This document shows, piece by piece, positions 4,030-9,530 of a stretch of DNA of 64,000 nt (position 1 is the first letter of the stretch; each line of letters starts with the position of its first letter). Made by a program: the position numbers and the translations under genes. Below the pieces are notes generated by a model. It worked only from the letters and a program-made list of their open reading frames with translations. It ran no database searches and had not been told where the DNA came from. This DNA is from Paenibacillus tuaregi (GTDB lineage: Bacteria > Bacillota > Bacilli > Paenibacillales > Paenibacillaceae): NCBI RefSeq assembly GCF_900086655.1, contig NZ_LT575476.1, positions 1,076,243-1,140,242 of the forward strand. Direction: 5' to 3'.

Positions 4030-5064
4030 TTGATCACCATTTATGACATTGCCCGTGTTACAGGATATTCACCGACTACGGTATCGAAGGTGTTCAATGG
4101 CTATACCGACGTAAGCCAGAAGACACGCCGGATCATTCTGGATACCGCTGCCGAGCTTGGATACGTGCCTAATGCCAATGCACGGAGCTTAACCATGAAG
4201 CGCTCCTGGACGATAGGCATGCTGTTTGTCGAACCGACGGGCACGGGTATCCGCCACCCCTACTTTGCCGGTGTTATTGAAGGATTTAAGAAGGTTGCGA
4301 CCTCTCTAGGGTATGATCTTATATTCATATCCAAAGACATTGGCGGGAGACCAAGCGGTTATTTGGAGCACTGCAAGATCAGGGGAGTTGACGGGGTCGT
4401 TGTTATTTTGCCGGATCATTCTGATCCCTACTTCCATGAATTAATGGACAGCAGCTTTCCCATGATCATGCTGGACTATGATACAGACCGGGCCAGTACG
4501 GTCAGTTCGGATAATACCGAGGGCAGTATAACAGCTGTAGAATATCTTTACTCGCTCGGACACCGGAGGATCGCCCATATCTCGGGAGGCATGAGCACCT
4601 TCGCTGGAGCCAGACGTAATTTAGGCTACAAGCAGGCGCTGGCTAAATTGGGCCTTACCTTAGATCCCGCTTATATTGTAGAGGGAATTGAGGGGGATTA
4701 CACGGTGGACAGCGGCTATTATGCCATGCGCAAGCTGTTTGAGCTTAAGGATTGGCCAACTGGCATATTTGCAGCAGGGGATAATCTTGCCGTTGGCGCC
4801 ATGCAGGCAATTAAGGAGAAGGGGCTTAGTGTTCCAGAGGACTTCTCGCTCATAGGGTTTGATGATATTGAAATGGCGAAGTACCTTACACCGGCTCTGA
4901 CGACGATCAGGCAGGATACATATCTGTTGGGAAAAACCGCTGCCGAGATGCTTATCAGTTCCATAGTGAACGCAGATGCGAAGGGTGGCGCACAAGACGT
5001 CATTCTACCCACCGAGCTAGTGATCCGTGAATCTTGCCGCCGGTTAACTGAAGATGAAGATTAG
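4030..5064 (+). CDS. LacI-family transcriptional regulator
   Basis: A 344-residue repressor. Residues 1-60 are the LacI helix-turn-helix and hinge (TIYDIARVTGYSPTTVSKVFNGY, then RSLTMKRS). The rest is a periplasmic-binding-protein-like effector domain including LGHRRIAHISGG, GFDDIEMAKYLTPALTTI and a C-terminal RESC motif. Such proteins bind a palindromic operator and release it on sugar or sugar-phosphate binding. The start is TTG, 9 bases after GGGAG. No sugar operon is adjacent: upstream is gene-free and downstream is a terminator, so its target lies elsewhere or was lost. Confidence 0.9.
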   Translation: MITIYDIARVTGYSPTTVSKVFNGYTDVSQKTRRIILDTAAELGYVPNANARSLTMKRSWTIGMLFVEPTGTGIRHPYFAGVIEGFKKVATSLGYDLIFISKDIGGRPSGYLEHCKIRGVDGVVVILPDHSDPYFHELMDSSFPMIMLDYDTDRASTVSSDNTEGSITAVEYLYSLGHRRIAHISGGMSTFAGARRNLGYKQALAKLGLTLDPAYIVEGIEGDYTVDSGYYAMRKLFELKDWPTGIFAAGDNLAVGAMQAIKEKGLSVPEDFSLIGFDDIEMAKYLTPALTTIRQDTYLLGKTAAEMLISSIVNADAKGGAQDVILPTELVIRESCRRLTEDED

Positions 5065-5091
5065 GAGATCTCATTTTGAGGTCTCCTTTAC
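5064..5091 (+). terminator. Terminator after the LacI-family gene
   Basis: GGAGATCTC (5064-5072), loop ATTTT, GAGGTCTCC (5078-5086), then TTTA. It overlaps the last base of the stop codon. Confidence 0.75.
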
Positions 5092-5216
5092 TATGTTTGC
5101 ACTTGAATTAGAACTTTTTACCTATTAAATTATGCTAATCTATTTACCAAAATGGAAATATTTGATAGTGTTAAGATAGCCGGCAAGCAAACATCTACGA
5201 TATGAGCAGCTAAGAT

Positions 5217-5240
5217 AAGCACCGTTGAAGGTGCTTTTCT
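5217..5240 (+). terminator. Short hairpin with T-run in the kinase leader
   Basis: AAGCACC (5217-5223) pairs with GGTGCTT (5230-5236), followed by TTTCTT. It lies about 85 bases upstream of the kinase start, so it could act as an attenuator. No known riboswitch core was recognised in front of it. Confidence 0.45.
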
Positions 5241-5322
5241 TATGGTCAGCAAACTTCTGCAGGCTTGAGGTTGTTGAAGTAATAGGAATGCGGTTCTTTC
5301 ATTAAATCGTAGAGGTGCAAAA

Positions 5323-7221
5323 ATGAAGGGTGTTCTCAAAGGAATTATCATTGTAATGGTTTTACTTGGCCTTGGCTTTGCTCTGTATTCCACAGGCCTG
5401 CTTAATAACAACAAGCTGGATGCCTATAACGTGACCAAATGGAACGTTGGATGGGTGAAGGACCTGAACATGCCTGCACAAAATGAGGAGATTAAGACAA
5501 TTAACGGCTGGCACCCGGCAGATATCGACAATCCTATGCCGGGGGAGCCTGATAACACGGCTCAGGCATGGATTAGGTTCCAGCTCCCCCCGTTGGGTGA
5601 GGGTACACAAGCTGTTCTCCTGGACAAGGTCTATGCCCGAAGTATTGTTATTTATATCGGGAACACTAAAATTTATCAATCATCGACCAAGAAAGATTAT
5701 CCGACCAAGAAAATCATAGCCCCTTTTCAAGTAAAGGATCAGAATAAGACTATTTATATTGGGTTAACACCACAGAATTCCCGGTCTGGGCTTATGAAAG
5801 ATGCGATTAAGGTAGGGGATTATGAACAATTAGAGAAGTATTATGTGAAAAGGGACATCTTGGATTTTATTCTTGGTGGAACACTTTTACTTATTGCGTT
5901 AGTAATGCTGATTTGTTTGCTTTTTTTGAATTATGAGTTTTTAACGAGTTGGATAGCTTTGTCTGTAGTGATCTTATCAAGCGGTTTATTGGTCATTACT
6001 TATTCAACATTCTTGTACACTTTTTATGAAGTGAATATTAGAGGAACTCAGTGGATCTTTGATGGTGCATTATTTGCTTTGCTATTCTCGATAAGCGTGT
6101 TTTTTGAGAAAACGATTGGAAAAGGATACTATTCCATCATCCCAATTACAAGAAGAATTTATGCCGTTTATGGACTCATATGTTTCTGCATGATCATCTT
6201 CAATGTAGCTAACAACTATGAATACGATAATTTATATCGTACTTTAACCACCACAGTTACTGGTTATATTATGATTGTCCAGTCTGTTATTATGGTAACT
6301 ACTGCATTGGTTGAGGCTCTCAAAGGGAAGATGGAGGCTATCGTTTTCTCAACTGGATTTATTTTGCTAGCATTTACAAGTCTTATCGAATTGATAATTT
6401 ATTTTGCTGAAAATCAGAAATATGTACTTGTATTATGGAAATTTGGTTTAATTTGCTTTGTTATTTCTCTAATCGTTATTTTGGGTAGAAAGTTCGTCAA
6501 GAATCATGAGCAGCTTGTGGAATATTCAGGACGACTAGAATTGTTCAATAATGAACTTCAACAATCCGAGAAAATGGAAATTATCAGTGAGCTGGCTGCT
6601 TCGGTGGCCCACGAAGTGCGAAATCCGCTGCAGGTAACGCGGGGATTTATCCAACTCATGGCCGAGAAGCATCAAAGCCAGGACAAGGTCTATCTAAGTA
6701 TGGCACTTGAGGAGCTTGACCGGGCATCTGGAATTATTACGGATTTCCTGACCTTTGCCAAGCCGGAGGCGGGAAAAGCGACAGTCCTCAATGTATTGAA
6801 TGAGTTTATACATATCGAGGGAATTCTTGTGCCTATGGCTAATCTGCAAGGCGGGCGTATATCCATGAACATTCCGCCTTTGCTTCAGGTTAGAGGGAAT
6901 TCCTCTAAATTCAAACAGGCCTTCATTAATATAATAAAAAACAGCATTGAAGCGCTGCACGGACATGGAGAGATACACATTTGGGCTTATGAGAAGGGGA
7001 ATTATGTTTATATCCACGTAAAGGATGATGGAGAGGGAATGACTCCGTCAGAACTTGCACGTCTCGGTGAGCCGTATTTCTCGAATAAGAGTAAGGGAAC
7101 AGGCCTTGGGTTAATGGTTACCTATAGCATAATTGAGGTTATGAGCGGAGTATTAACGTTTAAAAGTGAAAAAGGGGTTGGAACAGAAGCTGTTATCCGG
7201 CTTCCAAGCGTTAAGGAATAA
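5323..7221 (+). CDS. Multi-TM (7TMR-DISM-like) sensor histidine kinase
   Basis: A 632-residue membrane kinase. A signal-anchor helix at about 5-25 is followed by an extracellular beta-rich domain (about 26-180) and seven membrane helices (about 183-390), the 7TMR-DISM layout. A linker leads to the HisKA box AHEVRNPLQ (phospho-acceptor His430), the N-box IIKNSIEAL (about 537-545), the G1 box DDGEGM and the G2 box GTGLGL. The H-box is of the type found in Bacillus sporulation kinases, not the HisKA_3 type of ComP. No response regulator is adjacent, so it is an orphan, perhaps feeding the Spo0 phosphorelay (inference). It converges on the RiPP-like precursor gene with only 41 bp between them. 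Ligand unknown. Confidence 0.88.
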   Translation: MKGVLKGIIIVMVLLGLGFALYSTGLLNNNKLDAYNVTKWNVGWVKDLNMPAQNEEIKTINGWHPADIDNPMPGEPDNTAQAWIRFQLPPLGEGTQAVLLDKVYARSIVIYIGNTKIYQSSTKKDYPTKKIIAPFQVKDQNKTIYIGLTPQNSRSGLMKDAIKVGDYEQLEKYYVKRDILDFILGGTLLLIALVMLICLLFLNYEFLTSWIALSVVILSSGLLVITYSTFLYTFYEVNIRGTQWIFDGALFALLFSISVFFEKTIGKGYYSIIPITRRIYAVYGLICFCMIIFNVANNYEYDNLYRTLTTTVTGYIMIVQSVIMVTTALVEALKGKMEAIVFSTGFILLAFTSLIELIIYFAENQKYVLVLWKFGLICFVISLIVILGRKFVKNHEQLVEYSGRLELFNNELQQSEKMEIISELAASVAHEVRNPLQVTRGFIQLMAEKHQSQDKVYLSMALEELDRASGIITDFLTFAKPEAGKATVLNVLNEFIHIEGILVPMANLQGGRISMNIPPLLQVRGNSSKFKQAFINIIKNSIEALHGHGEIHIWAYEKGNYVYIHVKDDGEGMTPSELARLGEPYFSNKSKGTGLGLMVTYSIIEVMSGVLTFKSEKGVGTEAVIRLPSVKE

Positions 7222-7262
7222 AGTTGGAAACCGGATAACTGTTAACAATCATTGTTCAAGGA

Positions 7263-7514
7263 TTATATTGGATCAGGTCCCCAGATACCTCTTGCGCGAA
7301 CTTTACTATCAACCTCTTTGGGGCTTGGGGGCAACACTAGATAGAATTCGTCTGATTTCTCTTCAAGAGTAGTTATGCGAATATGCTCTGGGAGGATTAC
7401 ACCTAATGCTTCCTGGATAGCTTTCTTGGGATTGGCTAGCAGCTCTTCCTTAAAACTGGGGTCCTGCCAAGCTCTGTGAATCAATTGATTAGTAAGAATA
7501 GCATCATTAGACAT
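7263..7514 (-). CDS. NHLP-leader RiPP precursor peptide
   Basis: An 83-residue peptide with the nitrile-hydratase-like leader signature: MSNDAILTNQLI, then AWQDPSFKEELLANPKKA, then LGVILPEHIRI and the closing FYLVLPP (residues 57-63). In this family the LPP marks the end of the leader; the remaining 20 residues (64-83) would be the core, ending GIWGPDPI. The core has no Cys or Thr and a single Trp (78), so lanthionine or thiazole formation is unlikely, while Trp modification is possible. Start ATG at 7514 follows AAAGGATGG; a longer frame to 7550 has no better RBS. It is 75 bp downstream of an isoprenoid-synthase-fold gene on the same strand. No dedicated protease or exporter is adjacent. Confidence 0.85.
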   Translation of the reverse strand: MSNDAILTNQLIHRAWQDPSFKEELLANPKKAIQEALGVILPEHIRITTLEEKSDEFYLVLPPSPKEVDSKVRARGIWGPDPI

Positions 7515-7589
7515 TGTAACCATCCTTTCAAAATAGGTATTTTGATCCAAACTAAATATAGCATAAAGGTTCTGGGTAATCTAGGAATC

Positions 7590-8525
7590 TTATACATTTT
7601 TCGTTAACCAGTAGTTTAATCCCCCCTTGATTAGTAAATTTCGATTGTTTTTGATCTCCATCGCTATACTTTGCAGTTCATTTACCATATGAATACTGAA
7701 ATCTCTTAAGTGAGGGGAGTGCTCGGAGATGGATTGAACATGGATGTGATTGAGGTTTGCGAACTCCCCGTATCGTAGGAGACAGTCTCCGATAAATATC
7801 GCTTGGTCCATTTCCTCCTCAGATAGGGACTGACCGTTTGGGACTTCAAGTTCAGCTCTTACAAAAGCAATCAGACTATTATAGTTATTGTTCTCCAAGT
7901 CCTGCTTCCAGTCCTTAATGTCATCAAGCATCTGCAGCGTGATTAACGTATAATCCACCGCCTTGTCCAATGCCGCAATAAGGCCAGGTTGATTGGACAG
8001 GAGCATAGCACTAGCGACAGACAGCTTGACCGGGGCAGCCTTATGGGCCATGCCCAGCGGATTATCCTGCAGGTAGTTTTCTTCCTGCTCGCGAGATACC
8101 GCAGCGGCCCATTGCTGGAGATAGCTGCGGTAATAATCCCAGAACGGGGAAGCCTCCGGAAAATAAGAATAATAGATGGAAGTAAACTCTAGTTGAAAAA
8201 GACTCGCAAGTGGAAGCGATTCGACTGGTGAGGATTTGGGGTTGTCCATGACATCATCGATAAGCTGATAGTATAGCAGTCCGAAAATATTGGCTAAAGC
8301 AAATCTTCGGCTATCAATGATGCTGAGCTTCGAGCACTCCCGAAGCCAGAGTGGAAGCAGGTAGCTTATGTAGTTCTTACTTCGTCCCTCTTTAAGTACA
8401 TGGAACTTGTCCAGAAAATCCAACCCTGCTGACCTGAACGGAACAGGAAAATGCGATACGATATCCTCTGCTTCATTGAAAACAACCTGCATATCTTCCC
8501 TATAGGCGGTAAGCCATTCCTCCAT
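7590..8525 (-). CDS. Class 1 isoprenoid-synthase-fold enzyme (ComQ-like in fold)
   Basis: A 311-residue, all-helical protein with both aspartate-rich motifs of trans-prenyl transferases/class I terpene enzymes: LIDDVMDN (Asp90, 91, 94) and MLDDIKDWKQD (Asp201, 202, 205). These bind the Mg-diphosphate substrate. Lysines in HKAAPVKLS (about 162 and 167) sit where family members contact the diphosphate. The protein is clearly divergent from housekeeping polyprenyl synthases. ComQ, which prenylates the Trp of the ComX pheromone, has this fold and size. Because the next gene encodes a Trp-containing RiPP precursor, peptide prenylation is a reasonable but unproven role. Start ATG follows AAGGGGG. 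A palindrome at 8571-8586 lies in the leader. Confidence 0.75.
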   Translation of the reverse strand: MEEWLTAYREDMQVVFNEAEDIVSHFPVPFRSAGLDFLDKFHVLKEGRSKNYISYLLPLWLRECSKLSIIDSRRFALANIFGLLYYQLIDDVMDNPKSSPVESLPLASLFQLEFTSIYYSYFPEASPFWDYYRSYLQQWAAAVSREQEENYLQDNPLGMAHKAAPVKLSVASAMLLSNQPGLIAALDKAVDYTLITLQMLDDIKDWKQDLENNNYNSLIAFVRAELEVPNGQSLSEEEMDQAIFIGDCLLRYGEFANLNHIHVQSISEHSPHLRDFSIHMVNELQSIAMEIKNNRNLLIKGGLNYWLTKNV

Positions 8526-8570
8526 ATTACTCCCCCTTATAGACCTATAACATTTCAGTGTAGTAAGCGA

Positions 8571-8586
8571 TGTTATAGTGATAACA
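8571..8586. promoter_or_regulatory. Palindromic operator candidate upstream of the RiPP-like unit
   Basis: A perfect inverted repeat, TGTTAT-AGTG-ATAACA, with an extra ATAACA half-site at 8547-8552, all within about 60 bases of the enzyme gene start. It resembles GlnR/TnrA sites but is one base short of that consensus, so the regulator is unknown. Confidence 0.45.
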
Positions 8587-8663
8587 CTGCATGTTCGACT
8601 TAAGTTACGCTAATATACGAAAATTTTACAAAACCCCAGTATGATCGACAAAATACAGGCTGA

Positions 8664-8693
8664 TCAGCCGCCGCAATGGGCAGCGGAGGCTGA
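8664..8693 (-). terminator. Hairpin downstream of ytaF
   Basis: TCAGCC and CCGC pair with GCGG and GGCTGA around an 8-base loop, with one G/A mismatch. Only a weak T-run exists on the minus strand, so termination is probable but not strong. Confidence 0.45.
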
Positions 8694-8729
8694 TGGGAGT
8701 ATTGCCGTCTGGCATTGCTGTAAGACAAT

Positions 8730-9347
8730 CTACACAATCTGATGCAGGCCAATCAGAATCAGGAGGACTCCGGAGATAATGGTAGCCCGGTCTCCAAGCT
8801 TCTCCGCGGCATAACGTTCACCGAAGAGAGAGCAGAGGGCAAGCAGGATAAAGCTGAAGATCCCCACAGATAGCGAGGTCAGCCACACATTAAGGTGAGT
8901 CACTCCGGCATTAAACCCCCCGGCCAAGGCATTCATGGCAAGCGCAATGCCAAGCAATACTGCTTCCGTGAGACTGATGCTCTTGGAGCTGTCCCGGTCC
9001 GCTTCTTCCGGATTGCTTAGGTAGCGTGTGAAATTGCCGCTTTGTGCGGGGGATGCAGGAGCAGCAGCATTCTTCTCACGGAACGGTTGGAGAAGAACCC
9101 ATATCCCAACGGCGACAATGACCGTGGTCCCGATGGCCTGGCCGATCCAGGGTTCAATCCAGAGTGAAATGAGGTTGCCGAACAGGCCGGACAATAGTGT
9201 TGCCAGAAAGGAGATCACCGCGATCGTCAGGTTGGAGTACCAGGGGATACGGATTTTACGGACGCCATAGGCAATCCCGACTCCGGCATTGTCAAGGTTG
9301 GAAGCTACTCCAATCGTGAGAATTGCGATCAGACTGTAAGTATTCAT
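8730..9347 (-). CDS. ytaF: Sporulation membrane protein YtaF (MntP/DUF204 family)
   Basis: A 205-residue protein with about six membrane helices in two similar halves. The first half has ASNLDNAGVGIAYGVRKIRIP and the second IALAMNALAGGFNAGVT, the paired Asp/Asn-containing helices of the MntP/LysE-like fold. The YGVRKIRIP stretch points to YtaF rather than the manganese exporter MntP. Between the halves is a soluble loop of about 30 residues. YtaF is sporulation-linked in Bacillus with no firmly known substrate. Monocistronic; start ATG at 9347. Confidence 0.78.
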   Translation of the reverse strand: MNTYSLIAILTIGVASNLDNAGVGIAYGVRKIRIPWYSNLTIAVISFLATLLSGLFGNLISLWIEPWIGQAIGTTVIVAVGIWVLLQPFREKNAAAPASPAQSGNFTRYLSNPEEADRDSSKSISLTEAVLLGIALAMNALAGGFNAGVTHLNVWLTSLSVGIFSFILLALCSLFGERYAAEKLGDRATIISGVLLILIGLHQIV

Positions 9348-9530
9348 GAGGTTCGCCCCTTTACCATTGCTTATGACATCAGCATATGCCCAGGAGCTGG
9401 GTTTGGTTTCTTGAAAAAGAGAAGCGAAACTTACCCTGATTGAAATGTTTCCAATTTTGTCGAGAAAAAGTTACCCAGAACAGGGTTAACAGTGTATAAT
9501 CTGAGTATGATCCACTGAGGAGTGATAATT

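Follow-up and report, generated by a model that had tools for sequence, protein, structure and literature searches.

What do three neighbouring genes of Paenibacillus tuaregi, encoding an isoprenoid-synthase-like enzyme, a short peptide precursor and a histidine kinase with many membrane segments, do together, and does the kinase read the peptide that the enzyme modifies? The genes lie in a window of 64,000 nucleotides (the whole stretch of DNA that was analysed, contig NZ_LT575476.1), from the first letter of which all positions are counted. By homology, this cassette is a member of the PalXQP family, that of PalQ, PalX and PalP of Paenibacillus alvei (Miyata, Ito and Fujinami 2023, PMC10853753), a three-gene cluster reported to be conserved in various Paenibacillus, and its enzyme is very probably a tryptophan (Trp) prenyltransferase acting on the NHLP-type precursor. 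The features are the following.

5323..7221, forward strand: PalP-like orphan sensor histidine kinase, with an N-terminal anchor, an extracellular domain, seven hydrophobic segments, HisKA and HATPase_c
6586..6774, forward strand: HisKA domain of this kinase, with specificity residues QVGFQL (TVGFQL in KinB of Bacillus subtilis)
7263..7514, reverse strand: PalX-like precursor of 83 amino acids (aa) from the ATG at 7514, with an NHLP leader and a variable C-terminal core
7281..7283, reverse strand: codon of the Trp that is presumed to be prenylated; behind it stand the codons of a GPDPI tail (7266-7280) and the stop
7590..8525, reverse strand: PalQ-like peptide-tryptophan prenyltransferase, isoprenoid-synthase-like, assigned by homology; 311 aa, with a first aspartate-rich motif (FARM, D90/D94), Q198 and a second aspartate-rich motif (SARM, D201/D202/D205)

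The three genes and their co-occurrence

The enzyme has two Asp-rich motifs, IDDVMD (D90, D91, D94) and LDDIKD (D201, D202, D205), the second being preceded by Q198, and it thus shows the complete PalQ-type set of FARM, Gln just before the SARM, and SARM. D90, D94, Q198, D201, D202 and D205 are invariant in all 156 homologues compared. The enzyme of P. alvei DSM 29, whose own contig (L247) was recovered in the scan of named genomes, is 38% identical to that of the window (240 bits), and the kinases of the two loci match with 522 bits. The window enzyme alone matched no Pfam family above the cut-off (polyprenyl_synt, E 0.22) and no NCBIfam family at E <= 1, and among solved structures it gave just weak matches to farnesyl diphosphate (FPP) synthases (best E 0.12). 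PalQ of P. alvei was reported to prenylate PalX in vitro on its C-terminal Trp, at C3 and in the forward orientation, with dimethylallyl diphosphate (DMAPP), geranyl diphosphate (GPP) and FPP as donors (PMC10853753).

The precursor scores 63.3 bits with the NCBIfam NHLP leader model TIGR03793 (cut-off 50.9). The open reading frame (ORF) listing starts it at a TTG at 7550; the ATG at 7514, 75 bp from the stop of the enzyme gene, fits the homologues and a Shine-Dalgarno-like AAAGGATGG. The kinase converges on it, with 41 bp between the stops. The motifs, the leader model, the HisKA and HATPase_c domains and the hydropathy of the kinase therefore bear out the composition described in the original prediction, an isoprenoid-synthase-like enzyme, an NHLP precursor and a convergent kinase with several transmembrane segments, as published chemistry on the P. 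alvei homologue does, very probably, for the proposed prenylation of Trp.

Co-conservation was examined in three overlapping sets. The family survey covered 197 genomes, 163 with the enzyme and 34 without it; 141 of the 163 were fetched, the window's genome included, and 22 were left out. With 15 further loci of the genus these 141 form the main set of 156 loci (L031-L185 and the window; L001-L030 are short versions of loci later taken longer). A named set of 81 consists of the window and the best 80 of 241 confirmed relatives (L186-L265), and as the named records partly repeat genomes of the main set, counts over 156 and over 81 loci are not independent samples.

The enzyme is present in 163/197 genomes of the family, in 40/40 of the genus and in 123/198 of the order (18 of 43 genera). 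Among the 156 loci a precursor lies on the enzyme strand in 152 and a convergent kinase is found in 153. For the 141 family genomes the corresponding figures at the locus are 137 and 138, and in 130 of them the distance from the enzyme to the precursor behind it is at most 350 bp. Where the locus has no precursor, in four genomes, one is encoded elsewhere (98-120 bits, with Trp last or last but one), so that all 141 enzyme-positive genomes examined have one. None of the 34 enzyme-negative genomes has a comparable precursor; eight of them gave weaker NHLP matches, of 59 bits at best, where the window and its two nearest relatives reached 115-123 in the same search. The losses in these 34 genomes are not phylogenetically independent and the counts are given without a formal test. 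Enzyme, precursor and kinase occur together in all 81 loci of the named set, an association far beyond chance, and every one of the 40 genus genomes has a single kinase match at E <= 1e-60. A lack of co-conservation, which would have told against the pairing, was thus looked for and did not appear.

Some loci depart from the usual arrangement. Two precursors with differing cores are present in nine (L067, L084, L085, L119, L135, L143, L243, L255 and L265), two kinases are listed in 22 of the 81 named loci (that of L257 is probably a split gene), and one locus (L100, genome G007) has enzyme and precursor with no convergent kinase seen in the 11 kb read. A spurious second ORF of L222, in the named set, was handled by hand. 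Upstream of the window enzyme and on the same strand lies a gene for the sporulation membrane protein YtaF (8730-9347), a neighbour common to 22 of the 81 loci.

The enzyme had no match in a search of phages, and matches in two records in a search of plasmids. The plasmid NZ_CP050446 of Tolypothrix sp. PCC 7910 (L292:1-1115) encodes a PalQ-like enzyme, cut by the start of the record, with 28% identity over 61% of the query (E 1e-18), directly 5' of the gene for an NHLP protein of the Os1348 family in which Trp is internal. The enzyme retains the first Asp motif but has a degenerate second one, without the preceding Gln.

The suggestion that this pairing might be undescribed has been overtaken by PMC10853753, which describes PalP, PalX and PalQ of P. 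alvei and the prenylation in vitro. The main text of that paper names PalP once and mentions quorum sensing just for ComX, and in the literature found the Pal system is treated as an enzyme tool. New here are the co-conservation at genome scale, the precursors with an internal Trp, the orphan status of PalP together with its KinB-like specificity residues, and the tracking of the core by the seven-transmembrane (7TM) part of the kinase. Titles, openings of abstracts and some passages of the literature mention neither PalP as a receptor or sporulation input nor internal-Trp precursors, which is weak evidence of absence, subscription papers, preprints and supplements being mostly outside reach.

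Position of the presumed acceptor tryptophan

The window precursor ends in ...VRARGIWGPDPI, and five residues follow its presumed prenylated Trp (W-GPDPI), which is invariant in 38 aligned precursors. The C-terminal Trp that had been predicted is consequently near the end of the precursor but is not its last residue. The 20-residue core proposed with it was a guess; in P. alvei lysate the cleavage is reported to leave an 8-residue peptide (PMC10853753).

The window is not alone in this. In 151 labelled loci (L114 was excluded, its precursor frame ending like that of P. alvei L247) Trp is terminal in 76 precursors and is followed by one residue in 36, by two in 30 and by three or more in 9. The 75 tailed precursors, with 1-6 residues after Trp and the window among them, represent 50 distinct cores, and a terminal Trp does not, therefore, delimit the family found by homology. 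Tails of at least two residues begin with Gly in 14 and with Asn in 4 of 21 distinct cores, and the remaining 3, of CGPWR type, have their Gly at -2; the 21 are related and do not count as independent cases. Across the six positions that precede Trp, 50 of 696 residues are Gly. Where the tail is a single residue, no preference is seen (14 different residues in 29 distinct cores, Gly in 2). The window core has Gly at both -2 and +1.

The frame ends of the precursors in the P. alvei DSM 29 record (L247:6906-7289) and in L114 differ from the published core peptide. The precursor of P. antibioticophila (L200 / L183) ends in IWGEW and so combines an internal Trp, placed as in P. brevis (L262, IWGN), with a terminal one; L183 was scored as terminal in the tree analysis and as internal in the tail counts.

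A FastTree tree of the enzyme, with 156 rows and 38 of its 153 inner branches left open, shows 10 changes of Trp between terminal and internal, against a mean of 51 and a minimum of 44 in 100 shuffles of the labels, which indicates that the position is inherited but labile. Raw associations between enzyme columns and Trp position were strong; on well-supported branches there are 6 independent pairs, too few for a test. Lys at position 39 of PalQ (K40 in the window) was considered as a residue tied to terminal Trp and was rejected, as K is found with 23/77 terminal and 28/74 internal precursors.

How an internal Trp could be modified depends on how strict the enzyme is. P. alvei PalQ is reported to be strictly C-terminal, an Ala added after Trp abolishing its activity (PMC10853753), and a carboxypeptidase might accordingly remove the residues behind Trp before a strictly C-terminal prenylation. 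This explanation, which concerns one step only and is compatible with a signalling role of the cassette, is a serious rival and quite possible. It agrees with the one-residue tails, whose lack of preference looks as if the residue were irrelevant, and with an acceptor state that changed 10 times on the enzyme tree without any enzyme column shown to follow it. Gly would, however, be dispensable in a substrate whose tail is removed beforehand, so the Gly or Asn at +1 in 18/21 of the longer-tailed distinct cores, related as these are, speaks against trimming; it fits the low activity of PalQ on internal Trp that Gly at -2 to +2 is reported to permit (2026 review, PMC13290415). We favour a modification of the internal Trp in place. 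Another explanation for the window itself would be that its five-residue tail is a frame artefact of the assembly, caused by a length error in the run of four G that spans the Trp codon and its neighbour. The run is present, the completeness of the assembly is 95.67 where 36 of 39 genus relatives have 99-100, and the two nearest relatives (L171, L172) have tails of 1 and 0. Nevertheless eight loci besides the window (L069, L183 and six g8 loci) have tails of 3 to 6 residues and the Gly at the start of the window tail follows the general pattern, and we regard such an error as improbable.

The kinase and a possible route to sporulation

The sensor region of the window kinase matches the Pfam family 7TMR-DISM_7TM below threshold (E 0.28, 11.5 bits, cut-off 29). 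The same family is listed for 30 of 35 homologous sensor regions under a very lax limit of E 10 (best 2.5e-8), and the mean hydropathy of the 35 regions has one N-terminal peak followed by seven more.

PalP is an orphan kinase, since no REC domain lies within 56 kb of it in its genome. Orphans account for 5 of the 55 HisKA sites of this genome, the status having been assigned by eye from domain lists. The specificity residues of KinA-KinE are given as T[A/V/S/G]GFQ[L/I] (PMC6136694), and PalP reads QVGFQL in 138 of 152 cases (L102 was excluded, as its HisKA motif was missed by the search pattern), agreeing at five of six positions with TVGFQL of KinB. The register of the six positions was deduced, and it is supported by a kinase (L274) that reads TAGFQL as published for KinA. 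The ending GFQL is shared by 3 of the 4 other orphan kinases of the window genome and by none of 14 readable paired or hybrid kinases, from a sample of 16 out of 50 in which 2 were unreadable by the pattern. The best NCBIfam match of the kinase is AtoS (160 bits), followed by KinD with 155 bits, far short of the 775 required. On the phosphorelay itself, a study of 1,460 Paenibacillus genomes reports good conservation and a membrane-anchored Spo0B in 92% (PMC12826061), an anchoring that would suit a membrane kinase; the available part of that study makes no link between the phosphorelay and PalP. Orphan status and specificity residues together make the connection to the sporulation relay, already raised in the original prediction, plausible. 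The P. polymyxa kinases Kin1038 and Kin1377 (PMC6429003, PMC7538429; PPE_01038 and PPE_01377 of strain E681) are candidates for a PalP, and if one of them should lie convergent to a PalQ-PalX pair, the complementation summarised in PMC6429003 would tie PalP to sporulation.

In a k-mer table of the regions before the enzyme gene, the word ATGTTCG (16/102 with both strands counted together, expected 2.7) was considered and dropped, as ATGTTCG occurs in 16 and CGAACAT in 4 of 156 upstream regions at scattered places; TACTATA occurs in 18/102 (expected 3.2), and Rfam gave no match in 4900-9500.

The cassette evolves fast. Identity to the window among 39 genus relatives is 37-59% for the enzyme, 48-70% for PalP and 64-81% for YtaF. 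In 37 genus loci the mean pairwise identity is 0.52 for the enzyme, 0.38 for the extracellular domain of PalP, 0.53 for its 7TM part and 0.80 for its kinase domains; in the precursor it is 0.76 over the leader and 0.41 over the nine residues preceding Trp. We used partial rank correlations over 73 kinase clusters, with one representative each, 200 bootstrap draws and cores of 5, 7 or 9 residues. Core similarity correlated with that of the 7TM part, given the kinase domain, at 0.17-0.20 (bootstrap 0.10-0.26), and with that of the extracellular domain at 0.01-0.05, with intervals including 0. The 7TM part adds 0.23-0.24 given the enzyme, which is about as divergent; the enzyme adds 0.05-0.10 given the 7TM part, with an interval that excludes 0 only for 9-residue cores. 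These values lend modest support to a recognition of the peptide in the membrane part of PalP.

We are inclined to think that the cassette produces a prenylated peptide pheromone which is read by PalP and feeds the sporulation relay, and we hold this to be rather probable. The PalQ-like enzyme would modify the near-terminal Trp of the precursor with an isoprenyl group (C5-C15 for PalQ of P. alvei), and in the window copy the internal Trp would probably be modified in place with the help of the flanking glycines. After removal of the leader, the short prenylated peptide would act outside the cell and be sensed by the convergent 7TM kinase, which, as an orphan with Spo0F-type specificity residues, may pass phosphate into the phosphorelay. 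The prenylation is established just for PalQ and PalX of P. alvei, in published work in vitro; for the internal Trp of the window we infer it.

Several observations weigh against this pheromone reading. The internal Trp of the window contradicts P. alvei PalQ, the only enzyme characterised, and could be reconciled with it just by a different behaviour of the window enzyme, by a lifting of the block through Gly or by prior removal of the tail. Of the 34 enzyme-negative genomes, 6 have a kinase that strongly matches the sensor of PalP (two of these assemblies are 89-90% complete) and 2 further ones have a weak match; the 9-11 kb around the six kinases hold no trace of enzyme or precursor, and five of them pass the full-length threshold (L266, L267, L268, L269 and L271; L270 fails it). 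These five, intact PalP proteins with no PalQ or PalX nearby, are possible listeners or leftovers. No conserved exporter or protease gene was found near the 81 named loci: no gene family of at least 110 aa, other than enzyme and kinase, occurs in more than 22 of them, so the cassette is kept in varied surroundings without a companion of that size and kind. The first specificity residue of PalP is Q and not the T of KinA-KinE, and the region before PalQ shows no enrichment of a Spo0A box: 10 of 102 representatives have one, where 200 draws of random windows gave 6.7 on average and at most 13. Core and 7TM part are modestly correlated, and a signal in the extracellular domain, which evolves fast, could be masked by saturation. 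Finally, that PalP senses the peptide and feeds Spo0F or Spo0A is what we infer from these genes.

Two other functions have to be set beside a pheromone. NHLP precursors usually belong to ribosomally synthesized and post-translationally modified peptide (RiPP) natural products, and the product could be a prenylated antimicrobial RiPP that the kinase senses for self-regulation or stress only, with sporulation uninvolved. It would agree with this that antimicrobial peptides are reported to become more potent once PalQ has prenylated them (PMC13290415). We consider such a product unlikely, since the cassette has nearly the spread of a core gene set (163/197 of the family, 40/40 of the genus) and single copy as a rule, is accompanied by no conserved immunity or export gene of at least 110 aa, and has small variable cores that covary with the membrane part of the receptor, as in pheromone systems. 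The enzyme might also make a free terpenoid unrelated to the peptide. Its isoprenoid-synthase-like motifs point in this direction, as does the label of terpene synthase that databases formerly gave to PalQ (PMC10853753); the co-occurrence with the precursor, on which we reject a free terpene synthase, and the published activity in vitro of the P. alvei enzyme on its own precursor make it highly improbable.

Should PalP read the product of PalX, most species of the family would have a cell-to-cell signal tied to spore formation. Going further, and tentatively, PalXQP might, in much of the Paenibacillales, be the general route by which a lipopeptide quorum signal enters the Spo0 phosphorelay, one in which a prenyl-Trp peptide is read in the membrane by the 7TM part of PalP, the acceptor Trp has shifted between terminal and internal about 10 times with Gly-led tails making internal sites acceptable, and genomes with the receptor only may listen to others; we can imagine this to be so, but would put it below an even chance. 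With 50 distinct cores in 75 loci, the precursors that naturally have an internal Trp are ready test substrates for the site selectivity of the peptide prenyltransferases used in peptide lipidation.

Comparison with known systems

The ComQXPA system of Bacillus subtilis (PMC4008528) resembles the cassette in its isoprenoid-synthase-related Trp prenyltransferase, in its short variable precursor with a Trp near the C-terminus, and in its polytopic kinase with a variable sensor region, the window kinase also having many hydrophobic segments. It differs in that the window precursor has an NHLP leader. Membership of ComQXPA was rejected: the precursor has no match to PF05952 (ComX) at E <= 1, the kinase has HisKA PF00512 and not the PF07730 of ComP, no REC domain lies within 56 kb, which leaves no adjacent ComA, and the kinase is on the opposite strand, whereas the four genes of ComQXPA share one strand. 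The view that the parts are not ComQXP orthologues was thus upheld on these features.

With KinA-KinE and the Spo0 phosphorelay the window kinase shares its state as an orphan HisKA kinase and the ..GFQL residues, and five of its six Spo0F-type specificity positions read as in KinB; unlike these kinases it has a 7TMR-DISM-like sensor and a dedicated peptide cassette.

PalXQP of P. alvei agrees with the window in having three genes, in the layout of enzyme, precursor and convergent kinase (as in the P. alvei record), in the NHLP type of leader, and in the FARM, the Gln and the SARM of the enzyme. The published PalX ends in Trp, whereas in the window the Trp is internal and carries a five-residue tail that begins with Gly.

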